The notes beneath the pieces are model-generated. The model was not told the DNA's origin, ran no database searches, and saw only the letters and a list, made by a program, of their open reading frames with translations. DNA of 64,000 nt from Clostridiaceae bacterium (GTDB lineage Bacteria; Bacillota; Clostridia; Acetivibrionales; DTU013), in NCBI GenBank assembly GCA_012519745.1, contig JAAYPO010000082.1, positions 1 to 64,000 on the forward strand. Direction: 5' to 3'. Every line of letters begins with the position of its first letter. Position 1 is the first letter of the stretch. Made by a program: the position numbers and the translations under genes. Below, one piece after another: positions 2,380-42,099 of the stretch.

Positions 2380-3984
2380 CTAAGTGCCTCCGTCCTTCTT
2401 GTATTCATAGATGGTCTTGCCGGTGATCTTTTTGAAGAGCTTGGAGAAGTATTTGGGGTCTGTGTATCCTACCTTCAGGCTGACCTCACTTATCGTCATC
2501 GACGGGATCATGATCAGCTTCTTTGCATTTTCTATCCTGACGATTGTCTTATAGTCTATGAAGCTCATGCCTGTCTGCTTCTTGAACAGCTCGCTCAGAT
2601 AGGCAGGGCTCAGGTGCACATGCCGGGCGACCTGTTCCAGGCTGATGTCCCCCGCATAATTGCTTTCGATCACTTTCTTTGCATTTTCAATGAGGTTAGT
2701 GCTGTCAACAGGATTCTTATCATGATAAAAATCAAAAATATGCTGCAGCAGGGTTTTTACATAATCATCCAGATCCGACAAGAAGACCATATCTCTTATC
2801 TTCTCATAGGGTTGCTCGCCTGAGATGGTGGACTCCTGACGGAGGAAGGGCAGTTGGATGTTGAGCATTATGATGATGGATTGTATGAATTGCCAGTAAA
2901 ACTCTTTTACAAGCTCGGGTCTGAAACCCTTGCCCTCCGAAATAAGGGATCTGGTCACGCCATCTATATACGAGACTGCTGTTTGCAGATTGGAAAGCTT
3001 GATGTTCAGTATTATCTTGTTGAGGATTTCTTCGGATAGCGAAAGCTTTGGATCAGCCGACAGGCAGTTAGCCGAGTACTGCGCAAATGTGCCGCGGCCG
3101 TTCCAGAACCTGGTACCAAGTGCCTGTACTGCATCGGGCAACAGCTTTTGTATCATGCAGGGTGTATGTGTCTCCCCGCTGAGACCGCATGAAATGCTGA
3201 GACCATGCTTTTTTTCCAATATACGCCTACAGACATCGAATGCCTTTTTGAGCCCCTGTACCGCCTTTTGTCCGCATGCCAGTGAAACCACCAGGTTTTT
3301 ATCCTGAGCCGGATGGAATGTGACGGCACCGGCATATCTTTTCATGGACCGATTTACAAGGGCTTTATAATGCTCATATATTTCAGGCTCCCCGCCGGAC
3401 AGAACATTTTCATCCGGGGCCGTAAGGCATAGAATGAATGAACTGCTTTTTTCAAAACCGCTGCAGTACTTTCTGAATTCACTCTTTATGTTTTCCACAG
3501 TCAGACTGTTGTGGGATATGAGTCTGTTCAGGAATGCTTCGCACATGACAGGGAAGGCTTTTTCATATTGCTCCTGCCTTGTTTCCTTTTCTCTGATCAG
3601 CCTTTCTGCCTCCCACAGCTCATCGATCATCCTCTCCAGGACCTGTATCAGTTCGTTTTCATCCACCGGCTTCAGAAGGTAATCCTTTATACCATATTTC
3701 ATGGCCGTTTTTGCGTATTCAAAATCGTTATAGCCGCTGATCACAGCGATTTTAATATCAGGCAGCAGAGTGCGTATCTCGCTTATCAGCTCAAGGCCGT
3801 TAAGTCCCGGCATCATAATATCTGTCAGCAATATATCAGGTTCGTGCCGGCGGCAGAGCTCCAGAGCCTCTATCCCGTTGGCAGCTTCACTTGACAGTAC
3901 CAGATCCAGCTTTTCAAATGGTATTATGGATTTGATCGCTGTCCTCACCCATTTTTCATCATCTGCGATAATAAGCTTGAGCAT
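2380..3984 (-). CDS. YesN-like response regulator, receiver plus C-terminal AraC-type HTH
   Basis: MLKLIIADDEKWVRTAIKSII...DILLTDIMMPGLNGLELI...LLKPVDENEL; C-terminal HVHLSPAYLSELFKKQTGMSFIDY...VGYTDPKYFSKLFKKITGKT. Confidence 0.95.
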   Translation of the reverse strand: MLKLIIADDEKWVRTAIKSIIPFEKLDLVLSSEAANGIEALELCRRHEPDILLTDIMMPGLNGLELISEIRTLLPDIKIAVISGYNDFEYAKTAMKYGIKDYLLKPVDENELIQVLERMIDELWEAERLIREKETRQEQYEKAFPVMCEAFLNRLISHNSLTVENIKSEFRKYCSGFEKSSSFILCLTAPDENVLSGGEPEIYEHYKALVNRSMKRYAGAVTFHPAQDKNLVVSLACGQKAVQGLKKAFDVCRRILEKKHGLSISCGLSGETHTPCMIQKLLPDAVQALGTRFWNGRGTFAQYSANCLSADPKLSLSEEILNKIILNIKLSNLQTAVSYIDGVTRSLISEGKGFRPELVKEFYWQFIQSIIIMLNIQLPFLRQESTISGEQPYEKIRDMVFLSDLDDYVKTLLQHIFDFYHDKNPVDSTNLIENAKKVIESNYAGDISLEQVARHVHLSPAYLSELFKKQTGMSFIDYKTIVRIENAKKLIMIPSMTISEVSLKVGYTDPKYFSKLFKKITGKTIYEYKKDGGT

Positions 3985-3996
3985 TGTATCAGCCTC

Positions 3997-5853
3997 CTAG
4001 CTTTCTTTAACGGCAGGTAGTGTTATTTCCACTGTCGTGCCGGCCAGCGCATCTCTGAACCTCAGTCCGTACTGCTCACCAAAGTAAAGCCTGATACGTG
4101 AGTTTACATTCATTACGCCTATACCGGTCCCGGTGCGCACACCTTCGTCAGTGCTTCTGCTCTTGTCATTTGTAAGGGATCTGTTCAGTTCCTCGAGTTT
4201 TTTTGGCGGGATGCCAAGGCCGTCATCGGATATGATCAGCTTAATGTTGCTTTCCAGGGACAATATCTCAATTTTGATCGTTCCCTTTCCAAGCTTCATC
4301 TCCAGACCATGCTTGATAGAATTTTCTATCAGCGGCTGCAGTGTCAGCTTAAGTATCTTGTAATTCATCAGTTCAGGCGGTATGTTGTATTCAAGCTCAA
4401 ATTTATCTTCAAATCTGAAATTCTGTATGGATATATAGTTCTCCAGATGCTGGAGCTCCTCCTTTACCGAAACCAGGACCCGCTCGCTTATGCTGTAACG
4501 GAAGAGCAAAGACAGGGATTTGGACATGGAGGCAATCTCGTGAATGCCGTGATAGAGCGCTGCGCCGCGTATGGATTCCAGAGTATTGTATAGAAAATGG
4601 GGATTGATCTGATTTTGCAGCGAGTTGAGCTCTGCTTCCTTTTGACTCAGCTTTATACTGCTTATCTTATTGATTAGATAGTCTACTTCAGAGGTACTGC
4701 CTGCAGCAGAGTCATTTTTCCGTACCTGGAGCAGTGGTATCTGGCCTTCGGCGCCGGGATACTGGTTTTCATAATCAGAAATGACTGCTGTCAGCTCATT
4801 GATGGGCTTGAGCAATCCCAATGTAACACCCAGATATATAAGGAGCACGAGTCCGAACAGTACAAGGACGACTGTAAGCATCGGACTGCGCAGCCACAGC
4901 CGTTCCGATACATTCGAGGCCGGATTGAGGTCGATGAAGATCCATTCCTGGGCAGCATAATCAGTATAGGTCATGAAATAATCAGAGCCTTTGTAATTGA
5001 CCGGCACAAAGCTTTTGTCTCCGGCCCTCATTGCCGAAATAATGGCCTCATCAGCCTTGGTGGTTAGCTTTCCCCTGTCACGGCTGTAAAGGATATTGCC
5101 CTCCCGGTCGAGTATGAGCCTCTCTGCAGCTTTGTGTCCCCCATTGGAGTCAGGGCCGTATCCATCTGAGACTATCAGAAAATCAGAAAGAAGACTGTAG
5201 TTGAAATCAAAGAGCAGGACAGAGGGCGGTGCCGTGTCTATTCCGGCATTCAATGATTTTGCGGCACTCAGGACCATTTTATTGACACCTTCGGAATAGA
5301 AACGCTGCGTGGTGCCCAGCATAACGATATTCCCTGTGTCTGCAGATGCATCCATGAACCATTTCTGGGATGAAGGGCTGCTGATGACAGCATGGGCTGA
5401 ATCCGGTCCGTAGGACGCGATGATGCCGCCTTCGTTGATCACATATACGGCCGATAATGCATTTTGCTGTGCCGGTGAGAAATTGTCCTTTATCATAGCG
5501 GATAGTATGTCAGAGCTTTCCGCGCCGGCGGATGTGCTTGTCAGATGCTCCGCATCCTCCGTACCTATCGCCGAGGCTGCCATATGTATGGTGAGCTTTA
5601 GCTCATCAAGGTAATTGCCGATGAGCTCCTTTTCCTGAGTGATCCTTGAAACCGCCGCGTTGTAAGACATTTCTTCCGCAAGTGAACGCGTGTGGGAATA
5701 GAGTATGGCAACCGTCAGTAACGACGGGATCATAACAAGCAGAAAAAAGTACATGGTGATCCTGGATTTCAGTCTCATGTACAGCTTGCTGATGCTTTGT
5801 GCTTTGCGGTATGCTTTGCCGAAGCGGACAGGAAATATTTTCATTATGTACAC
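3997..5853 (-). CDS. YesM-like sensor histidine kinase with large extracytoplasmic sensor region
   Basis: INPHFLYNTLESIRG H-box, LQPLIENSIKHG, DDGLGIPP, TGIGVMNVNSRIRLYFG; N-terminal TM plus ~250-aa external region and second TM. Confidence 0.94.
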   Translation of the reverse strand: MYIMKIFPVRFGKAYRKAQSISKLYMRLKSRITMYFFLLVMIPSLLTVAILYSHTRSLAEEMSYNAAVSRITQEKELIGNYLDELKLTIHMAASAIGTEDAEHLTSTSAGAESSDILSAMIKDNFSPAQQNALSAVYVINEGGIIASYGPDSAHAVISSPSSQKWFMDASADTGNIVMLGTTQRFYSEGVNKMVLSAAKSLNAGIDTAPPSVLLFDFNYSLLSDFLIVSDGYGPDSNGGHKAAERLILDREGNILYSRDRGKLTTKADEAIISAMRAGDKSFVPVNYKGSDYFMTYTDYAAQEWIFIDLNPASNVSERLWLRSPMLTVVLVLFGLVLLIYLGVTLGLLKPINELTAVISDYENQYPGAEGQIPLLQVRKNDSAAGSTSEVDYLINKISSIKLSQKEAELNSLQNQINPHFLYNTLESIRGAALYHGIHEIASMSKSLSLLFRYSISERVLVSVKEELQHLENYISIQNFRFEDKFELEYNIPPELMNYKILKLTLQPLIENSIKHGLEMKLGKGTIKIEILSLESNIKLIISDDGLGIPPKKLEELNRSLTNDKSRSTDEGVRTGTGIGVMNVNSRIRLYFGEQYGLRFRDALAGTTVEITLPAVKES

Positions 5854-31694: not shown

Positions 31695-31905
31695 AGGCTG
31701 TCAGCATTTCCCGTTTTTTGTGTCGTAAAATACGACTTTTTCATGCCATCTTTTGTAATCTGAAAATATTTCACCTAATGTGAAAAATGTTGCGTTGAAG
31801 TGGACTAGAATACACCTTATCATAATAAGTGTAATAAAGCTAAATCAAATTTCACAGTATTCCCGAAACTGATTATGTAAATTACAGAATAAGGAAGGAA
31901 ACGAG

Positions 31906-32943
31906 ATGGCACTTCAAAAGAACACCTTTATTAAAGATAAGCTTATCCTTGGAATAAAGGAATACATGAATGAGTTATCGATTGCGGCACTTATTGTTTT
32001 AATAACTTGCATATCACCACTTCTTTCATCGGTGTTCCTTGCAGGTGATAACCTGCTGAATTTACTGAGGCAGACATCTTATACAGCAATAGCTGCTATG
32101 GGTATGTACTTTGTAATACTGATCGGCGGCATAGACCTGTCTATCGGTGCCACTATCCAGGTTGTCGGTATGGTATCCATAATGATGCTGACCAGCGGGT
32201 ATTCTACTGTAACTACGATTGTCTGCGTTGTATTGATCGGACTTGTGATCGGTCTTGTAAATGGAGTTCTGGTCACTTTCGGAAAATTGCAGCCATTTGT
32301 TGTGACACTGGTCACAAAGAGTATTATGGATGGTATTGTCCTGGTGACAACAGATGGGGCAAGCATATCGGGCAAGGTGCCGGAAAGCTTTGTTAAAATC
32401 GGGACAGAATATATCGGTATTTTCCCTGTTCCTGTCGTCATCACGATGATCGTGTTCGGTATAACATTTATTCTAATGTCCAGAACAACCTACGGCAGAA
32501 GACTTTTTGTAACAGGCTCCAACAAAGTGGCGTCGTACAATTCGGGAACGAATGTGCGTTTGATACAGATCAGTGCATATATCCTGTGTGCGCTGCTGGC
32601 AACGATCTCAGGTGTCCTTACGGTGGCAAGGATCGGTGCCTTCCAACCCTCAACAACACATGGAGGTGCTACCGGTATGGAACTCAATGCAATTGCTGCA
32701 GCGGTAATCGGCGGTGCATCCTTGTCTGGCGGAAAGGGTTCTGTAATAGGGGCACTGTTCGGAGCATTGCTTTATGGAGTACTTTCTAACCTATTCCCTC
32801 TGATTGGAGTGAACTCGTATTTACAGCAATTGATACAGGGCGTGATAATAATAGTAGCAGTGATTGCCGCCGGCAGAAACAGCAGTTCCTCCAAAATCAA
32901 ACTTAGAAAGAGTAATGGAGGCAGCCATGAATACAGTACTTGA
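31906..32943 (+). CDS. RbsC-like ABC transporter permease
   Basis: VILIGGIDLSIGATIQVVGM, GATGMELNAIAAAVIGGASLSGGKGSVIGALFGALL. Confidence 0.95.
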   Translation: MALQKNTFIKDKLILGIKEYMNELSIAALIVLITCISPLLSSVFLAGDNLLNLLRQTSYTAIAAMGMYFVILIGGIDLSIGATIQVVGMVSIMMLTSGYSTVTTIVCVVLIGLVIGLVNGVLVTFGKLQPFVVTLVTKSIMDGIVLVTTDGASISGKVPESFVKIGTEYIGIFPVPVVITMIVFGITFILMSRTTYGRRLFVTGSNKVASYNSGTNVRLIQISAYILCALLATISGVLTVARIGAFQPSTTHGGATGMELNAIAAAVIGGASLSGGKGSVIGALFGALLYGVLSNLFPLIGVNSYLQQLIQGVIIIVAVIAAGRNSSSSKIKLRKSNGGSHEYST

Positions 32944-34417
32944 ACTAAAAGGTATATCGAAAATATTTGCAGGCACTCCGGTTCTTGACAATATAGACCT
33001 GGCCTTCAAAAGCGGTGAACTGCATGCATTAGTTGGAGAAAATGGTGCCGGAAAATCAACATTGATCAAGATAATATCAGGCGTATACCATCAGGAAGCG
33101 GGTAAAGTCTATCTAAATGGTAAGGAAGTACACTTTGCCACTCCAAATAGTGCACAAAAAGCTGGTATCAGTACACTGTTTCAGGAGATTCAGGAGATAC
33201 CTGAAATGACAGTGGCAGAAAACGTATTCCTTGGTCGTGAACCAAGATACAAAAACTCACCCATCGTTGACACAAAGCAGCTGAAGAGTGAGGCTGAGAA
33301 GCTTGTTAAAAGGCTCGGACTCAACATAGATGTCAGTACAAAGATGCGAGAGCTGCCTGTATCGTCGAGAAAAATGGTCGAGATAGCCAGGGCTATGAAT
33401 CATCAAGCTTCAGTAGTAATAATGGATGAACCCACTGCCAATCTGAATGCGGAGGAAATGGCTGCGCTTTTTAGAATGATAGATGAACTGAAAAAGAACC
33501 GGACGACTATCATATATATTTCACACCGTATGAATGAGGTTTTCAGCCTGGCTGATCGTGTAACGGTGCTTCGTGACGGAAAACTAATCGCTACACTCAA
33601 CAATGATCAGTATGATGAAAAGAGCCTGATCGCACTGATGATTGGACGTGAGCTTACCGATCTTTATCCGGAACGAGAACATAGTATCAAGGAGGTCGTA
33701 CTGGAGGTCAAAAATTTATCACTCGGTGAGCACTTCAAAAATGTTTCATTTGATGTACACAAGGGTGAGGTGCTTGGTCTTGCAGGGCTGGATGCATCAG
33801 GCGCAAATGCTGTGACGAAAACCATATTCGGATTGTGCGGTAAACCGGAGGGAAAGGTGTTCCTCAATGGAGCGGAGCTGGATATAGTAAATCCGTCGAC
33901 AAGCATAAAGCAAGGGATGGCGTTCCTGACAGAGGACAGAAAAACACAAGGATTGTTCCTGAATCAGAATATGGTCAACAATTTCACTATCAGTGCACTG
34001 GCTAAGGTGTTCAGCAACAGAGCATTTATGAAAAAGAAGAAGGAAAGGCTTGAAAGCAACAAAATGGTCGATAAGCTGCAGATAAAAACCGCAGGCCTTC
34101 ATACCCGGCTTTCTGAATTAAGCGGCGGTAATCAACAGAAGGTAATGCTTGGCCGTTGGATGCTGGACAGGTATAAAGTCCTTATCATGGAGGAGCCGAC
34201 CAGGGGAGTCGATGTAGGAGCTAAATCTGAAATATACTATCATATCAACAAGCTTGCCGAAGCAGGCCTTGCGGTAATCATGTATTCAACAGAGATGCCT
34301 GAACTGTTGGGCATGTGCGACAGGATACTGGTGTTCTCGGGTGGAGAACTGAAGGCGGCTCTTTCAAAGGAAGAAGCAACACAGGAAAGTATAATGCAGC
34401 ATGCATTAGTGAGGTGA
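32927..34417 (+). CDS. RbsA-like double ABC ATPase
   Basis: GENGAGKSTLIKIISGVYHQ, second domain ELSGGNQQKVMLGRWMLDRYKVLIMEEPTRGVDVGAK. Confidence 0.95.
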   Translation: MNTVLELKGISKIFAGTPVLDNIDLAFKSGELHALVGENGAGKSTLIKIISGVYHQEAGKVYLNGKEVHFATPNSAQKAGISTLFQEIQEIPEMTVAENVFLGREPRYKNSPIVDTKQLKSEAEKLVKRLGLNIDVSTKMRELPVSSRKMVEIARAMNHQASVVIMDEPTANLNAEEMAALFRMIDELKKNRTTIIYISHRMNEVFSLADRVTVLRDGKLIATLNNDQYDEKSLIALMIGRELTDLYPEREHSIKEVVLEVKNLSLGEHFKNVSFDVHKGEVLGLAGLDASGANAVTKTIFGLCGKPEGKVFLNGAELDIVNPSTSIKQGMAFLTEDRKTQGLFLNQNMVNNFTISALAKVFSNRAFMKKKKERLESNKMVDKLQIKTAGLHTRLSELSGGNQQKVMLGRWMLDRYKVLIMEEPTRGVDVGAKSEIYYHINKLAEAGLAVIMYSTEMPELLGMCDRILVFSGGELKAALSKEEATQESIMQHALVR

Positions 34418-34421
34418 CACG

Positions 34422-35378
34422 ATGAAAAAATTTGAGTTATCTAAGCTGTTGTCAATAATTATGCTGGTTGTATTGATTTTATTGGGCTCGCAGTTGTCAG
34501 ACAGTTTTCTATCCGTCAGGAATTTCTCGAACATCATTCAATACTCGGTGGAGACTGCATTGATTTCAATAGGAATGGCACTGGTGCTCATCATTGGCGG
34601 AATAGACCTGTCAGTTGGATCGGTGCTGGCATTTTCTACGGTCGTCAGTGCTAAGCTGGCGCTCGCCGGAGTAAATACGGCAGTTATACTAATCGTTACC
34701 ATCGTGATTGGGTTTACAGTCGGAGCAATAAACGGACTTCTGATTACTAAAACAAAAGTGGAAGCTTTTATGGCAACTCTTGGAACTATGATGGTAATGA
34801 GGGCGTGTACCTTCCTGTTCACAGGAGGGGGTCCGCTGACAGGCTCTATAAAAACGAGCTTCCAGCAAATTATCAAAGGAAAATTTCTTAACGTTCAGTA
34901 TGGGATATTCTACGTAATAATCATGTTTGTACTCGCTGGGATCATACTGTCCAGAACACGCTTCGGCAGACATGTTTACGCAGTGGGCGGCGGTGAGGAA
35001 ACTGCAAAGCTATTTGGTGTACAGGTAGATAAGGTAAAAATTGCTGTTTACATCATAAGCGGGATACTTGCGGCATTGGCCGGCATGATCATTGCAGCAA
35101 GGATAGGTATAGGAGAGCCTAGATCCGGCTACGGATACGAAATGATAGCGATTACAGTATGCGTTGTCGGAGGAGTCAGCATGACAGGCGGAAAGGGCAC
35201 TGTGACAGGGACTTTTATCGGACTGATGGTTATCAGTATCATTAAAAACCTGATGAATCTGATGAATATCGATACAAACGCGCAGCCGATTGTCAACGGC
35301 ATAATAATTCTGATCGTAGCACTGATCATATCAAGAGAAATGCTTGGAAAAAGGAAATCACTGGTCAAACAGATTTGA
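34422..35378 (+). CDS. RbsC-like ABC transporter permease
   Basis: VLIIGGIDLSVGSVLAFS, GYGYEMIAITVCVVGGVSMTGGKGTVTGTFIGLMVI. Confidence 0.95.
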   Translation: MKKFELSKLLSIIMLVVLILLGSQLSDSFLSVRNFSNIIQYSVETALISIGMALVLIIGGIDLSVGSVLAFSTVVSAKLALAGVNTAVILIVTIVIGFTVGAINGLLITKTKVEAFMATLGTMMVMRACTFLFTGGGPLTGSIKTSFQQIIKGKFLNVQYGIFYVIIMFVLAGIILSRTRFGRHVYAVGGGEETAKLFGVQVDKVKIAVYIISGILAALAGMIIAARIGIGEPRSGYGYEMIAITVCVVGGVSMTGGKGTVTGTFIGLMVISIIKNLMNLMNIDTNAQPIVNGIIILIVALIISREMLGKRKSLVKQI

Positions 35379-35439: not shown

Positions 35440-36471
35440 ATGAAAAGAATCGTAGCATTACTGATTTTACTGACTCTAGCATTTACGATGGCTGCATGCG
35501 GACAGACATCCAACATCTCACAGACTCCGGCAGCACCAGCGGATACACCATCGGCTGCACCGGCTGCAAATGAAGGAACTGAAACAGCAGCAGAAAAGAA
35601 TACTTTCAAGATCGGTTTTTCACAGTGCGTTATGAACCACCCGTTCCGCATAGCAATGGTTGACTCATTTAAAGAAGCAGCAAAAGCTTATGATGATGTA
35701 GAAATTGTCGTAGTTGAAGGCGATGGAAACGTACAGACTGAGATCACAAACATTGAATCACTAATACAGCAGGGCTGTGACGCCATAATTGTAAGCTCTC
35801 TTTCAGGAACTGCTATATACCCGGCATACAAGCAGGTCCAGGATGCAGGTATCCCGCTGATAATTGCTGCATCAGGAAATGCCAAGGAAGATGAAGACGC
35901 GTATAACTACTATGACACTTTCGTCTCTACTGATGAAGTCGAGATGGGTATTGCCGCTGCTGATTATGCAAACTATCTTCTAAATGGTGAAGGCAATGTT
36001 GTCATGATCCGTGGTGTTGTAGAGTCTACAAACTCAATCAACCGTTATGTCGGCTGGAACCAGCAGATAGTAAATTATCCAGGTATAAAGGTAATCGCTG
36101 AGCAGTCAGCAGAATGGCTGAGACTAAAAGCTAATGAAGTGATGACGAATATACTCCAGGCTAACAAGGAAATCGACCTGGTATATGCGGAGAATGATGA
36201 AATGGCACTTGGAGCTTTGATGGCTATCCAGGATGCAGGCCGTGAAAACGAGATCAAGATCATATCCATGGATGGTCAGGAAGATGCCGCAATGGAAGTT
36301 AAGGCAGGCGGACCCTTCAAGCTGACCATAACTAACAACTCGGATACCAAGGAAGCTCTTGCAGCGGCATACAAACTGGCTAAGGGAGAAAAGGTAGACA
36401 AGAGGATAGTACTCCCATACGAAAAGGTTACATCTGAAAATGTTGATGAATACCTTGCAAATAATTTCTAG
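35440..36471 (+). CDS. Periplasmic-binding-protein-type substrate-binding lipoprotein
   Basis: Lipobox MAACG; FKIGFSQCVMNHPFRIAMVDSFKEAAKAYDDVEIVVVEGDGNVQTEITNIESLIQQGCDAIIVSS. Confidence 0.94.
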   Translation: MKRIVALLILLTLAFTMAACGQTSNISQTPAAPADTPSAAPAANEGTETAAEKNTFKIGFSQCVMNHPFRIAMVDSFKEAAKAYDDVEIVVVEGDGNVQTEITNIESLIQQGCDAIIVSSLSGTAIYPAYKQVQDAGIPLIIAASGNAKEDEDAYNYYDTFVSTDEVEMGIAAADYANYLLNGEGNVVMIRGVVESTNSINRYVGWNQQIVNYPGIKVIAEQSAEWLRLKANEVMTNILQANKEIDLVYAENDEMALGALMAIQDAGRENEIKIISMDGQEDAAMEVKAGGPFKLTITNNSDTKEALAAAYKLAKGEKVDKRIVLPYEKVTSENVDEYLANNF

Positions 36472-36528: not shown

Positions 36529-37686
36529 ATGGGTTACGAAGACGTATTACAGAACATACCTGTAGCTGAATTTCAGGATCGTCTGGCCAAAACAAAGGCT
36601 GAGATGGAGAAGAAGGGTTTAGAAGGCTTGCTGGTATATTCAGACTCTGCAAGGATGAGCAATGTCAGATGGCTTGCAGATTACCGAGCATTTGACGGTG
36701 TGTTTCCCTACCCTGCAATGGTGTTCGTTCCATTGCATGGAGACCCGATACTATTTGCCGAAGGCAGTCTTGTAGGTTATGCCGAGGACAAGACATGGTT
36801 CGATGATACCCGCGGCATAAGACAGGAGCTTGGCAATGTTGTACGCGATTTTGCCTCAAAGCATCCCGGAGCTAAAATCGGCCTCAGTGGTGCGAAATAC
36901 TGCGCATTGGAATTCTACGAACAGATAATGGCAAATATCGGCTCTGCAAAGCTTGAGAAGACAATGCTCATCGAACAGCTCAAATCTGTTAAGAGCGAAC
37001 GTGAAATCCGCAATATGAAGGTAGCAGGTGACATTGCAGACAAGGGACTCTGGAAAATCAAGGAATTGCTTGAAACTGAGAAGGACCTTACGGAACGTGA
37101 AGTAGCACGGCAGGCAATGGCTGAGATGTTCCGACTCGGAGCAGATACAAAATCATTCGATATAATGGTGCAGTCTGGTGTAAATGCAGAGAAATACTTC
37201 CTTGCATATCCGTCAGATAAGATAGTCAAGAGAGGCGAAATAATACTTGTTGATATCGGTGTAAGGTTCAATGACTATTCCTCGGATATGGCCAGAGGAA
37301 TCGAGTATGGAGAAATGACCGACGAGCAGCACAGACTCGCAGAAACCTGCCTCAAGGCATGGGAAGCCGGAATGGCAGCGCTCAGGCCGGGAATGACCGG
37401 CAGGGAGGCTGATGTAGCTGCAAATGAAGTGATACACAATGCAGGCTATGATCACTCGGCAGGAGAGGGACGCGGATGTGCCCACTCCACCGGTATGGAC
37501 CCCGAAGAGGAAATCCCGACCATCGGACCGGAAAGCGATGATATTCTGCAGGTCAACCAGACATTCTGCTTTGAGATCACATTGCTTGAACCAGGTGTGG
37601 GCGGAACCCGGATAGAAGACACATGCGTACTGCGATCTGACGGTGTTGAAAGCCTTACCAATTTCCCGAGAGTTAATAGATGGTAG
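36529..37686 (+). CDS. M24 (aminopeptidase P / prolidase / creatinase) family metallohydrolase
   Basis: IILVDIGVRFNDYSSDMARGI, HSTGMDPEEEIP, FEITLLEPGVGGTRIEDTCVL: candidate D/D/H/E/E metal ligands all present. Confidence 0.92.
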   Translation: MGYEDVLQNIPVAEFQDRLAKTKAEMEKKGLEGLLVYSDSARMSNVRWLADYRAFDGVFPYPAMVFVPLHGDPILFAEGSLVGYAEDKTWFDDTRGIRQELGNVVRDFASKHPGAKIGLSGAKYCALEFYEQIMANIGSAKLEKTMLIEQLKSVKSEREIRNMKVAGDIADKGLWKIKELLETEKDLTEREVARQAMAEMFRLGADTKSFDIMVQSGVNAEKYFLAYPSDKIVKRGEIILVDIGVRFNDYSSDMARGIEYGEMTDEQHRLAETCLKAWEAGMAALRPGMTGREADVAANEVIHNAGYDHSAGEGRGCAHSTGMDPEEEIPTIGPESDDILQVNQTFCFEITLLEPGVGGTRIEDTCVLRSDGVESLTNFPRVNRW

Positions 37687-37697
37687 AAACTTACTGC

Positions 37698-37736
37698 AAG
37701 ATCTTGGCCTTGTCCTATGACAAGGTCAAGGTCTTT
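37698..37736 (+). terminator. Strong Rho-independent terminator after the M24 gene
   Basis: AAGATCTTGGCCTTGTCctatGACAAGGTCAAGGTCTTTC. Confidence 0.88.
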
Positions 37737-37849: not shown

Positions 37850-39469
37850 ATGAAAAGGGAAGTTCTTGGCTTACACAATGTTTCATACAAAACGGCCGCC
37901 GAATCGATACTGAACCATGTTACCTTCAGCCTGTATGAAGGAGAGGTTCTCGGGATTGTCGGAATAAATGCGGCTGGAAAGAGTACTCTGGCAAAAATCA
38001 TTGCAGGTGTCCTTGAACCGACCATGGGGCAGGTCAATTCAGGCCTGGCTGACGACATTGAAAGCGCTGGCAGCAAAAGGCCTGGCAGAATCGATACGGA
38101 CAGTTCGGGTAAAGGCAGTATGAGATTGGGTATTGGGTATATCAGTGAAGCACCGGATCTGCTTGCGAACATGACAGTGGCGGAAAACCTTTTTCTTGGC
38201 GAAAATGAATACCATGGAATTTTCCTTAACCATATCAAACTAAAAAAGCAGGCCCAAAATGTGCTAAGTGGGTTCGGTCTGGACATCAATCCATCGCTGA
38301 CGGCAGCGGAACTGACATATCCGCAGAAGAAGCTGGTACATATAGCAAGGCAGCTTATACATCCTCCGAGGGTCATCGTTATTGATGAGCTGACAGATGG
38401 ATTTTCAGAGAAAGAAATAGATATGCTTTATGATATCATACGCAATGTAATTAGCAAAGGAACTTCTGTTGTATATACGGCGCATAACTATATTGAAGCT
38501 ATGAGATTTTCAGACAGACTGCTCATTATGAGAGACGGAGTCATCGTAGCCGAATTCAAAAGCCCTTACAGTGATAAGGAGACAATCCGCAGGACGGTCT
38601 ACCATACAGATACGCCGGCAAGCCCTCACCGGATATATCCCGCAGATACCGCAGAAGAAAACACGGCTCAGTCCGGTGTAAATCTTACTGATACGGGATC
38701 AGATGATATAATATTTGAGACCGCTGCAGTGCCGGTGTTTGAGGTTCAACATTTATACTCGCAGCATATCAGCAATGTTTCGTTTGTGTTGAATAAAGGT
38801 GAGATACTTGGAGTCACAGGTTTTATCGGAAGCGGCAAAACAGAGCTCGCCAAGTGCATTGGTGGTCATATACCATACTATTCAGGCGGACTTGTATTAA
38901 ACGGGAAGCCGATAAGCTGCCGCAGTCCGAAACAGGCAATTGCAAATAAGATATGCCTGTGCCTGGAGGACCGTAAAGAAATGCTGCTGCCATTATCCCA
39001 GTCAATTAGGACGAACCTGTCCATGATGGTGCTGGACAGGATAAGTAAATGGTCTTTCATCAAAAAAAACAGGGAGAAACTGCTGGCGGATGAGTACAGC
39101 GCAAGGTTCGGTATAGGAATGGATGGCGACAGGAGAACCGGCGAACTGAATAATGCAGCGCTGACAAAGCTTACCATAGCCAAGTGCATGGTTATTAATC
39201 CGAAACTGATTATTCTTGACGAACCGACAAGAGAGCTCGATCAGAACGGGGTCAGGGATTTATGCTCGATTCTGAAGGAGATCAGCAAATCCTGCGGAGT
39301 TATAGTAGTCTATTCCAAACATGATGCTCTCGCTGAGATATGTGACAGAAATATCGTGCTGCATAAGGGAAAACTAATCGGAGAGCTCGAAAGAGGCGAG
39401 GCAACATACGACAAAATAGCGCAGCTTATTGAAACAGCAGATATGAAGGGGTTTGAAGAACATGATTGA
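37850..39469 (+). CDS. Divergent RbsA-like double ABC ATPase with degenerate signature motifs
   Basis: GINAAGKSTLAKIIAG and GFIGSGKTELAKCIGG P-loops; LSGG sites replaced by LTYPQKKL and LNNAALTKL; Walker B VIVIDELTDGFS and LIILDEPTRELD. Confidence 0.9.
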   Translation: MKREVLGLHNVSYKTAAESILNHVTFSLYEGEVLGIVGINAAGKSTLAKIIAGVLEPTMGQVNSGLADDIESAGSKRPGRIDTDSSGKGSMRLGIGYISEAPDLLANMTVAENLFLGENEYHGIFLNHIKLKKQAQNVLSGFGLDINPSLTAAELTYPQKKLVHIARQLIHPPRVIVIDELTDGFSEKEIDMLYDIIRNVISKGTSVVYTAHNYIEAMRFSDRLLIMRDGVIVAEFKSPYSDKETIRRTVYHTDTPASPHRIYPADTAEENTAQSGVNLTDTGSDDIIFETAAVPVFEVQHLYSQHISNVSFVLNKGEILGVTGFIGSGKTELAKCIGGHIPYYSGGLVLNGKPISCRSPKQAIANKICLCLEDRKEMLLPLSQSIRTNLSMMVLDRISKWSFIKKNREKLLADEYSARFGIGMDGDRRTGELNNAALTKLTIAKCMVINPKLIILDEPTRELDQNGVRDLCSILKEISKSCGVIVVYSKHDALAEICDRNIVLHKGKLIGELERGEATYDKIAQLIETADMKGFEEHD

Positions 39470-41054
39470 TGTTGTTATCGTAGATGATGAAATCTGGGTA
39501 ACTAAGCTTATCGAGAATATTATCGATTGGAACTCTTACGGTTTCCGTATTGTCAAGGTCTATCATGATGGATTTGATGCTCTCGAGGGAATAAAGCTGT
39601 TAAAGCCCGACCTCGTTTTCACGGATATACGAATGCCGGGGATTACCGGACTGAACATTATCCGAGAGCTTTCTGCCGAAAACAAAGACACTTTATTTGC
39701 CATAATCAGCGGTTACAGCGACTTTGAATATGCAAAGGCAGCTCTCACCTACGGCGCAGTCGGTTATTTGCTCAAGCCCATCGACAAAAAGGAACTTGAA
39801 AAAATACTGATAAAGGTAAAGGATATGATATCGGCTGAAGGTTCAAGACAACAGGATATCCTCAATCTGAAAATAACTTACGATAATGCTATTGACAAGC
39901 TTAGAGAGCAGTACTTCGAAAAAATATTCGAAGGTGTTGTAGATGAAAGCATTTCGATCGAAAAAATAAACAGCGAACTTAATTTGAACTTCCATGAAGG
40001 TACCTTTCAGGTGCTTGAAATAGTATACGGACAGGTCGACAACGAGGCCCAGGTGGTGGAAAGGGTTCTTAAAAACCTGTGGGAATGCGGACTGCCCTCA
40101 TTATGCATTGCAATAGTTGCCCTGAATATCAACCATAAGATCGTTATAATACTTAATTACAAGCGGGAGCTTGCCGAATCTGCCGGGAAATGCATCAGGG
40201 ATTTCTTTGGGAGCGTCCTGGAAGACAGAATCACAAAGGAATTGGTTCTGTCAATCGGGACTGAGGAACAGTCGATTTCCGGGCTGCGCAGTTCATACAG
40301 CAGTGCTAAATTGATCTGTTTCGCACGGCTGACCCAGGGTGTCAATCGAATATTCGACTGCAGGGATTTTCTGCAGCTGGAAAACAGCACCCCGCCCGAT
40401 CCCGAGTTCGACGTAGAGCTGAAGCAGGCCTTGAACAGCAATGACAAGGCACTGGTAGTTTCTATGATCAGCAAAAAGATTATGGAACTGACCATAGTTA
40501 ACGCCAAAAATCCTGTAACGCTGTACAACGGAATAATGTACATTCTCAAGCTGTTATCCGGCAACATCTTCGGAACTTCTAAGAAACCCGATGAATGGCA
40601 GGACTATTTCGAAGAAAAAAGAGTCAGAATAGAGTCATCTGTAGGGAAAGCAGCTATACTGGTCCTGTTCTCCGAAATCGCTGAGGATATAATCAGCCTC
40701 AAGTCAAATGATGAACTTAACAAGAACAAAATCATGATAGAAGACGCTAAAAGGTATATCGACAGCAACTATATGTGTGATATAGGCCTTGAAGACGTTT
40801 CAAAAACCGTGCAATTGAATCCAAACTATTTCTGTGAGCTGTTTCGCAAGGAAACGGGTTACAATTTCAAAGAGTATATTTCTCTGCGAAGAATGGAAGC
40901 TGCAAAAGAACTGCTCAAGAATATTTCATACAAGCTGTCGGACATATCCTCGCTTGTAGGCTATAATGATGCTAAATATTTCAGCAGAACATTCAAGAAA
41001 TATGTTGGCATTACTCCTTCAGAATACAGAAAGTTAATGGTTGGATATGAATAG
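39462..41054 (+). CDS. YesN-like response regulator with AraC-type HTH
   Basis: MIDVVIVDDEIWVTKLIENII...DLVFTDIRMPGITGLNII...LLKPIDKKEL; SKTVQLNPNYFCELFRKETGYNFKEY...VGYNDAKYFSRTFKKYVGITPSEYRK. Confidence 0.95.
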   Translation: MIDVVIVDDEIWVTKLIENIIDWNSYGFRIVKVYHDGFDALEGIKLLKPDLVFTDIRMPGITGLNIIRELSAENKDTLFAIISGYSDFEYAKAALTYGAVGYLLKPIDKKELEKILIKVKDMISAEGSRQQDILNLKITYDNAIDKLREQYFEKIFEGVVDESISIEKINSELNLNFHEGTFQVLEIVYGQVDNEAQVVERVLKNLWECGLPSLCIAIVALNINHKIVIILNYKRELAESAGKCIRDFFGSVLEDRITKELVLSIGTEEQSISGLRSSYSSAKLICFARLTQGVNRIFDCRDFLQLENSTPPDPEFDVELKQALNSNDKALVVSMISKKIMELTIVNAKNPVTLYNGIMYILKLLSGNIFGTSKKPDEWQDYFEEKRVRIESSVGKAAILVLFSEIAEDIISLKSNDELNKNKIMIEDAKRYIDSNYMCDIGLEDVSKTVQLNPNYFCELFRKETGYNFKEYISLRRMEAAKELLKNISYKLSDISSLVGYNDAKYFSRTFKKYVGITPSEYRKLMVGYE

Positions 41055-42099
41055 TATCATAAGAAAAAGAAAACGTTATAACCTAAGAATAGGGATCATT
41101 GTGCATCTGGTTCTTGAGATAATCATGCTGCTGCTGTTTGTTGCCACGATCCTTGAATGGAAAGAGGGACAGCAATTTTCAGCTTTCAGGGCAGGTGTCT
41201 CTGCTGCCTATTTGGTGATGCTTATTATTAACGTACTCATTCTTCTAAGAAAAATCTATATCCCTATATCCGACGTTGAGAAAAAGGTAAATATATTGAT
41301 GCAGTCAAAGCAGCTAAAGGACGAAAATGCTGCTGCGGATTCACCTATAGACTATAGTGATTATAGTTTGATAGATATATTGAAGCTGTTGTTGAAACGT
41401 GAGTCGGATGCGGCACTTATGAAAAAGCAAGCTGAGATCAATGCACTTCAAAACCAGATAAACCCGCACTTTTTATACAATACGCTTGAGATGATACGAG
41501 GACAGGCTATTTGCTGCAACTCTCCGGAAATTGCCGAAACGACAAAGGCATTAGCGGACATTTTCAGATACAGTATCAGTAAAAAAGGTTCAATGATATA
41601 TCTATGGGAAGAACTGGCAAATATAAATTCCTATATGCAAATACAGCAACTGCGGTTCAATAATAAATTTAGTCTGGAGACAGAGATCGAAACTGATGCA
41701 ATGAATGTAAAAATACCAAAGCTCCTGATCCAGCCTGTGGTTGAGAATGCGCTCAAGCATGGACTGGAGATAAAACGAGATAAGGGGCATATAAAGATCA
41801 TCGCATTCCGCACTGTAGACAGGATAGTGGTTTCTGTCGAGGATGACGGCCTGGGAATGACTTTTGATAAGCTGAAGGAAATAAATAACAAGCTGTATGG
41901 CAAAGGTAATGTGCACCCTATTGTCAAAGACACGTACGAAGGCACCGGTGCTGAAAGCAGCGACGGAAGGAGCAGCATCGGTCTTGTGAATATAAACGAA
42001 AGAATAAAGCTGATCTACGGACCCAAATACGGTGTAACGGTCATGAGTGCCCAGGGTATAGGAACAAAAATCACTCTCACACTTGGCATTATTACGTAA
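41047..42099 (+). CDS. YesM-like histidine kinase with short two-TM N-terminus, no evident extracellular sensor domain
   Basis: INPHFLYNTLEMIRGQAICC, LIQPVVENALKHGLE, EDDGLGMTFDKL, SSIGLVNINERIKLIYG; only two closely spaced TM segments before the kinase core. Confidence 0.93.
   Translation: MNSIIRKRKRYNLRIGIIVHLVLEIIMLLLFVATILEWKEGQQFSAFRAGVSAAYLVMLIINVLILLRKIYIPISDVEKKVNILMQSKQLKDENAAADSPIDYSDYSLIDILKLLLKRESDAALMKKQAEINALQNQINPHFLYNTLEMIRGQAICCNSPEIAETTKALADIFRYSISKKGSMIYLWEELANINSYMQIQQLRFNNKFSLETEIETDAMNVKIPKLLIQPVVENALKHGLEIKRDKGHIKIIAFRTVDRIVVSVEDDGLGMTFDKLKEINNKLYGKGNVHPIVKDTYEGTGAESSDGRSSIGLVNINERIKLIYGPKYGVTVMSAQGIGTKITLTLGIIT

Follow-up and report, generated by a model that had tools for sequence, protein, structure and literature searches.

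A degenerate RbsA-like ATPase as a candidate third component of YesM-YesN systems whose kinases lack a sensor domain

We analysed a stretch of 64,000 nucleotides (nt) from a Clostridiaceae bacterium (GenBank assembly GCA_012519745.1, contig JAAYPO010000082.1, positions 1 to 64,000 of the forward strand), referred to here as the window. Three of its genes encode a double ATP-binding cassette (ABC) ATPase descended from the importer subunit RbsA, a YesN-type response regulator and a YesM-type histidine kinase (Table 1). The first-pass annotation of this DNA had described overlapping stop and start codons in the trio, and we confirmed an overlap of 8 nt at both junctions. Pfam identified two ABC_tran domains in the ATPase, representing two fused halves, and Response_reg and HTH_18 domains in the regulator, which are the receiver (REC) and AraC-type helix-turn-helix (HTH) expected of a YesN protein. 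In the kinase we detected only His_kinase (PF06580), with its phospho-accepting histidine, and HATPase_c, with nothing N-terminal to these. A Pfam and NCBIfam domain scan of the window proteins revealed no permease gene inside the unit, in agreement with the annotation, and an RbsC-RbsA-RbsC-RbsB importer with its own RbsA adjoins it upstream. We propose, with moderate confidence, that the trio is a three-component sensory system and that the duplicated RbsA-type ATPase is its accessory signalling subunit.

Table 1. Genes and sequence elements of the trio and of the region upstream of it
Feature	Position	Strand	Remark
RbsA-derived ATPase with two nucleotide-binding domains (NBD), NBD2 signature degraded, 539 amino acids (aa); candidate accessory signalling subunit	37850..39469	+	
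YesN-type response regulator, 530 aa; REC and AraC HTH_18	39462..41054	+	start overlaps ATPase stop, 8 nt
YesM-type histidine kinase, 350 aa; two close transmembrane (TM) helices, without Cache/HAMP	41047..42099	+	start overlaps regulator stop, 8 nt
Direct repeat TAATSTGAAAA, 20-nt spacing; candidate YesN operator	31756..31786	+	upstream of window importer operon
RbsC-like permease (BPD_transp_2), putative cognate importer	31906..32943	+	
Canonical RbsA ATPase with LSGGNQQK	32927..34417	+	
Second RbsC-like permease (BPD_transp_2)	34422..35378	+	
RbsB-like sugar-binding protein	35440..36471	+	
M24 peptidase / Xaa-Pro-dipeptidase-like gene, last of importer operon	36529..37686	+	
Terminator-like 17-bp hairpin, weak U tract, between importer operon and trio	37698..37735	+	

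In the window kinase, the TM windows span residues 15-33 and 49-67, 15 residues apart, and an NPHFLYN H-box lies at residue 138. Since Pfam found no sensor, Cache or HAMP domain in it, the earlier description of a kinase with only two close TM helices and no Cache-type domain is upheld. Six other YesM-like kinases of the same genome have open frames of 488-644 aa, compared with 350 aa for the window kinase. Structural comparison placed GanS and then BceS among the top fold matches of the window kinase, BceS being match 4. A second YesN-YesM pair lies at 2380-5853 on the minus strand of the window and includes a 618-aa kinase; the Cache domain that had been attributed to this kinase is present as a dCache match, but a sub-threshold one.

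Blast searches with the window ATPase in its family, order and class recovered canonical RbsAs only. Searching by the regulator instead exposed operons in which a degenerate RbsA-like ATPase accompanies YesN and a short YesM. An alignment of 12 degenerate ATPases, used alone, was scanned against 85,462 species genomes (GTDB) and gave 100 relatives, with 80 loci kept. These loci were picked on ATPase peptides alone, using two peptide search patterns, and blind to any two-component system (TCS) nearby. A same-strand YesN/YesM system was found in 78 of the 80 (the contigs of L121 and L152 stop short of yesN), with YesM directly upstream of the ATPase in 75 of these; in the remaining three, of the Ruminiclostridium cellobioparum type, a chemoreceptor gene lies between the ATPase and YesN/YesM. 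One of the two loci without a TCS (L137) is cut by its contig 150 nt upstream, leaving 78 of 79 testable loci linked. The single intact exception, L109, matches the ATPase locus of genome G379 (L200) in size, score and neighbours and is taken as the same genome. There the pseudo-ATPase stands alone beside ileS-like and peptidase-like genes, and G379 carries a short-kinase YesMN-importer operon elsewhere (L095), such that this genome appears to keep the two apart. As a control, 20 canonical RbsA loci were inspected: none had YesM or YesN as an immediate neighbour, whereas a permease was next door in nearly all. Sporadic adjacency had been named beforehand as a possible refutation of the idea, and the adjacency proved to be anything but sporadic. 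Kinase and ATPase genes overlap at 37 of 67 junctions and lie within 25 nt at 63, and the ATPase is probably translationally coupled to the kinase. The kinases measured in the 80-locus set are 333-357 aa long, and no Pfam sensor or HAMP domain was detected in 33 kinases (29 from degenerate loci, that of the window and three early-branching ones). Overall, there is a strong case for the RbsA-derived ATPase as a third component dedicated to a YesMN pair without a sensor.

Additional features were seen around these loci. In L102 (10511-12760), L103 and L104, from R. cellobioparum and a relative, the gene between the pseudo-ATPase and YesN-YesM encodes a methyl-accepting chemotaxis protein (MCP) of up to 750 aa, and MCP genes also lie near L095 and L138, suggesting a shared sugar taxis input. 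The importers upstream of many degenerate trios include a double solute-binding protein (SBP) of 596-627 aa, with two tandem SBP matches in one open reading frame (ORF); examples are L149, L151, L153, L157, L159, L165 and L179. In L090, L091 and L092 the degenerate trio stands beside inositol-catabolism-like genes (IolD-, IolB- and IolE-like, aldehyde dehydrogenase, transaldolase-like), assigned by eye, and this context is a clue to the imported substrate. An apparent 922-aa kinase-ATPase fusion in L174/L175 was rejected as an out-of-frame, GC-rich ORF. A plasmid search returned, among the matches listed, distant RbsA/GguA-type ATPases of 24-27% identity.

We examined the motifs of the window ATPase, both of whose signatures had been read as replaced. 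The NBD2 signature is indeed lost: it reads LNNAALTK, compared with LSGGNQQK, which is kept in 23 of 23 canonical RbsA sequences. The NBD1 change is ordinary, as canonical RbsA also lacks LSGGQ in NBD1 (LSVSKQQMVEIA type), and LTYPQKKL was rejected as a sign of degeneration. Nor is the first Walker B abnormal, as had been thought of VIDELTDG, since Asp and Glu are both present (VIDEL). NBD1 further keeps its Walker A (GINAAGKST) and the H-loop His, and lacks the Q-loop Gln (ISEAP versus canonical IHQEL); a low-confidence insertion of ~30 aa follows Walker A1. NBD2 keeps the P-loop GFIGSGKTE and LDEPTREL, so that both P-loops are retained as originally reported. In RbsA-type proteins the active composite site is formed by Walker A/B of NBD1 and the signature of NBD2, and with that signature lost the site should be impaired in the window ATPase. 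Judging from its motifs, the protein may still bind ATP at either P-loop. Its best NCBIfam match (RbsA/MglA/XylG type) scores 269 bits against a cut-off of 699, although the RbsA-family cut-offs are strict and the canonical RbsA of the window is also under its own (520 versus 689 bits). An AlphaFold2 model has both halves well folded, with a mean predicted local distance difference test (pLDDT) score of 85 and a disordered linker at 255-291, and the PDB matches of the fold are generic ABC ATPases.

These motifs bear on the proposal that the protein is an ordinary transport ATPase, serving a distal permease or acting as a second or heteromeric subunit for the upstream one, with the TCS overlap reflecting co-expression only. 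Retention of the P-loops and Walker B, the adjoining RbsC-RbsA-RbsC-RbsB genes and the intact motifs of some early-branching forms are consistent with such a role. We nevertheless consider it improbable, as the active composite site has lost the LSGGQ that NBD2 would contribute, the linkage of the relatives is to a TCS and not to a permease, and motif loss means that related forms cannot be ATPases.

The extent of that loss is apparent in the 80 related ATPases. Only 25 retain the Walker A1 Lys; in the second Walker B, nearly all have another residue in place of Asp, and 67 have Gln where the catalytic Glu would be. Conservation decreases from canonical to related sequences at Walker A1 (3.40 to 1.81), Walker A2 (2.60 to 1.58), Walker B1 (2.80 to 2.05) and signature 2 (3.27 to 2.25). 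It increases after each Q-loop, from 2.67 to 2.95 in NBD1, a value inflated by the use of that peptide as one of the two scan patterns, and from 2.09 to 2.79 in NBD2, where the window was not a scan pattern and is hence independent; this NBD2 segment ranks second in conservation within the protein. In ABC importers, the segment after the Q-loop faces the coupling helix of the permease. A canonical RbsA-RbsC importer is also present in 67 of the 80 loci, and the pseudo-ATPase is therefore not needed to power import. The first-pass annotation had suggested that the window ATPase might act as a sensory or gating module rather than an import motor, for instance through contact with the upstream permeases and a report of transport state to the kinase. 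The neighbourhood supports a dedicated partnership with YesMN, and motif-less relatives beside canonical RbsA-RbsC suggest that the ATPase does not drive import by itself.

If the ATPase is not a motor, it could instead be a cytoplasmic ligand or energy sensor that binds nucleotide or a sugar metabolite and controls the kinase without touching a permease. This would fit the P-loops and Walker B residues kept in the window ATPase, as well as a kinase that has no other input domain. We regard it as unlikely, because the nucleotide-binding residues (Walker A1 Lys and second Walker B Asp) are lost in most relatives, and the NBD2 groove region is conserved. The same groove, together with lost catalysis and a canonical RbsA in the same neighbourhood, is what would be expected of a brake on the importer that competes with RbsA for the permease, the kinase being controlled by something else. 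A brake seems very unlikely to us, however, given that the tightest coupling is to the kinase gene and that the sensor-less kinases of these loci need a partner. Finally, motif loss might indicate a decaying duplicate hitchhiking in the operon. The ratio of nonsynonymous to synonymous substitution rates (dN/dS) is 0.06-0.21 in pairs where it was measurable, similar to that of the kinase, and the ATPase frames are intact in about 80 species genomes. These values contradict decay, and we rejected the pseudogene idea, for the family; the window copy has no close relative, and overall we give decay hardly any credence.

We also looked for sites through which the regulator could act. A motif, CCCCYTWATTCRAAA, recurs between the pseudo-ATPase gene and rbsA, in some loci twice at a distance of 20-22 nt. 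Tandem sites at this spacing are expected for an AraC-type regulator. Excluding the four loci that suggested the motif, it is present in 18 of 26 held-out loci at 5.97 per kb; its density is 0.078 per kb in other places and 0.13 in shuffled sequence. Where the importer is at another position, the motif precedes rbsA in 15 of 21 loci, and it was found upstream of yesN in none of 60. In the window, a direct repeat of another sequence precedes the importer operon (Table 1; p about 0.004 in dinucleotide shuffles). The operator pattern of the degenerate clade fits this repeat poorly (4 mismatches at best); no comparable tandem repeat was found upstream of the window trio, and the upstream regions of importer and trio share no 8-mer. 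Domain scans and the presence of LSGGNQQK bear out the earlier description of the importer as a full RbsABC set with a canonical RbsA. The strong terminator placed between importer and trio is a strong hairpin (-25.7 kcal/mol, z -6.9), but its U tract is weak and a consensus terminator scan did not call it.

Because the kinases are sensor-less, the probably coupled ATPase is conserved, the importer has its own ATPase and operator-like sites precede it, the simplest model is that the ATPase provides the input of the kinase. The tree suggests that the ATPase arose as an RbsA-type duplicate that joined a YesN-YesM operon. With no sensor in the kinase itself, the input would come through this ATPase. 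Most likely, the ATPase would use the coupling groove that it retains to dock on the CUT2 (RbsC) permease next to it, or equivalently on the kinase, and would pass importer occupancy or substrate absence to the kinase. The kinase would then phosphorylate YesN, which may switch the importer operon via the tandem operator sites. In its fullest form, the proposal is that an RbsA-derived pseudo-ATPase replaces the YesM sensor domain and reads the state of a CUT2 importer by permease docking, in a widespread and undescribed class in Bacillota; we offer this form tentatively, as a serious possibility.

The ATPase-first order of the window trio is common to L084, L187, L188, L189, L190, L061 and L087, most of which adjoin a canonical importer. 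In these other loci the ATPases vary from forms with intact motifs (L188, L087) to forms that have lost them, and the kinases are longer (441-602 aa). One of them, L061 (9207-9938), has a 243-aa single-domain degenerate ATPase, followed by YesN and a 602-aa YesM. The early-branching cases came to light through the regulator, which biases any count of their TCS linkage. In the tree, a starred branch (97/86) separates all TCS-linked ATPases from the 23 canonical RbsAs, and the fully degenerate clade forms one group (100/99). Several observations weigh against the proposed sensory role, in addition to the inflated NBD1 value. The early-branching L188 and L087 keep all motifs and are accompanied by kinases with longer sensor regions, and in L095 no ATPase gene adjoins that of the short kinase. 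The window ATPase itself retains both P-loops and falls among the TCS-linked sequences at a place made unsure by long branches. We rejected its membership of the fully degenerate clade, as its profile E-value is 1.9e-37 and those of members are better than 1e-200. The trio in the window thus represents a less decayed form, in which a half-degraded ATPase accompanies a fully stripped kinase.

We know of no input for most YesM-type kinases, and a conserved, importer-derived cytoplasmic partner is an obvious one for the large set without a sensor domain. The group does not reach the cut-off of any curated NCBIfam family, and no description of such an ATPase-YesMN system was found in the open-access literature searched. 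The system resembles ordinary YesM-YesN pairs in the domain content of kinase and regulator. It differs from them in lacking the large extracytoplasmic region of an ordinary YesM, which is often of Cache type and may be accompanied by HAMP, as in the window and L011 examples. Likewise, the ATPase resembles RbsA/MglA/XylG (CUT2) in its two fused ABC domains and full-length alignment, and the ancestry is evident; it differs in falling far under the family cut-offs, in the lost NBD2 signature and in being encoded with a TCS instead of a permease. In Bce modules (BceAB-BceRS) the kinase has two TM helices, its outer loop is very short, and an ABC transporter supplies its input (PMC10314905). The window kinase also has two TM helices and a short loop, but here a YesM (PF06580) kinase is paired with an AraC-type regulator, the partner is a single ATPase descended from an importer and not BceA with a BceB permease, and the neighbouring permeases are BPD_transp_2 rather than BceAB-type with a large outer domain. 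In CuaDSR of Ruminiclostridium cellulolyticum, a YesN-type TCS controlling a sugar importer has taken in an importer part as its third component (PMC10384115). In such SBP-linked systems the extracellular binding protein acts on a large outer kinase domain, whereas here the partner is a cytoplasmic ATPase and the kinase has no outer domain. XylFII-LytS-YesN is another SBP-linked three-component system. Neither Bce nor CuaDSR has a lone importer-type ATPase as third component. The recurrence of counterparts of the trio beside sugar importers in about a hundred species suggests an unrecognised sensing of importer need or working. If correct, our proposal would assign a function to some hundred proteins now placed by family searches only as generic ABC ATPases, and would add to transporter-coupled signalling a route through a cytoplasmic pseudo-enzyme, next to the Bce and SBP-linked routes.

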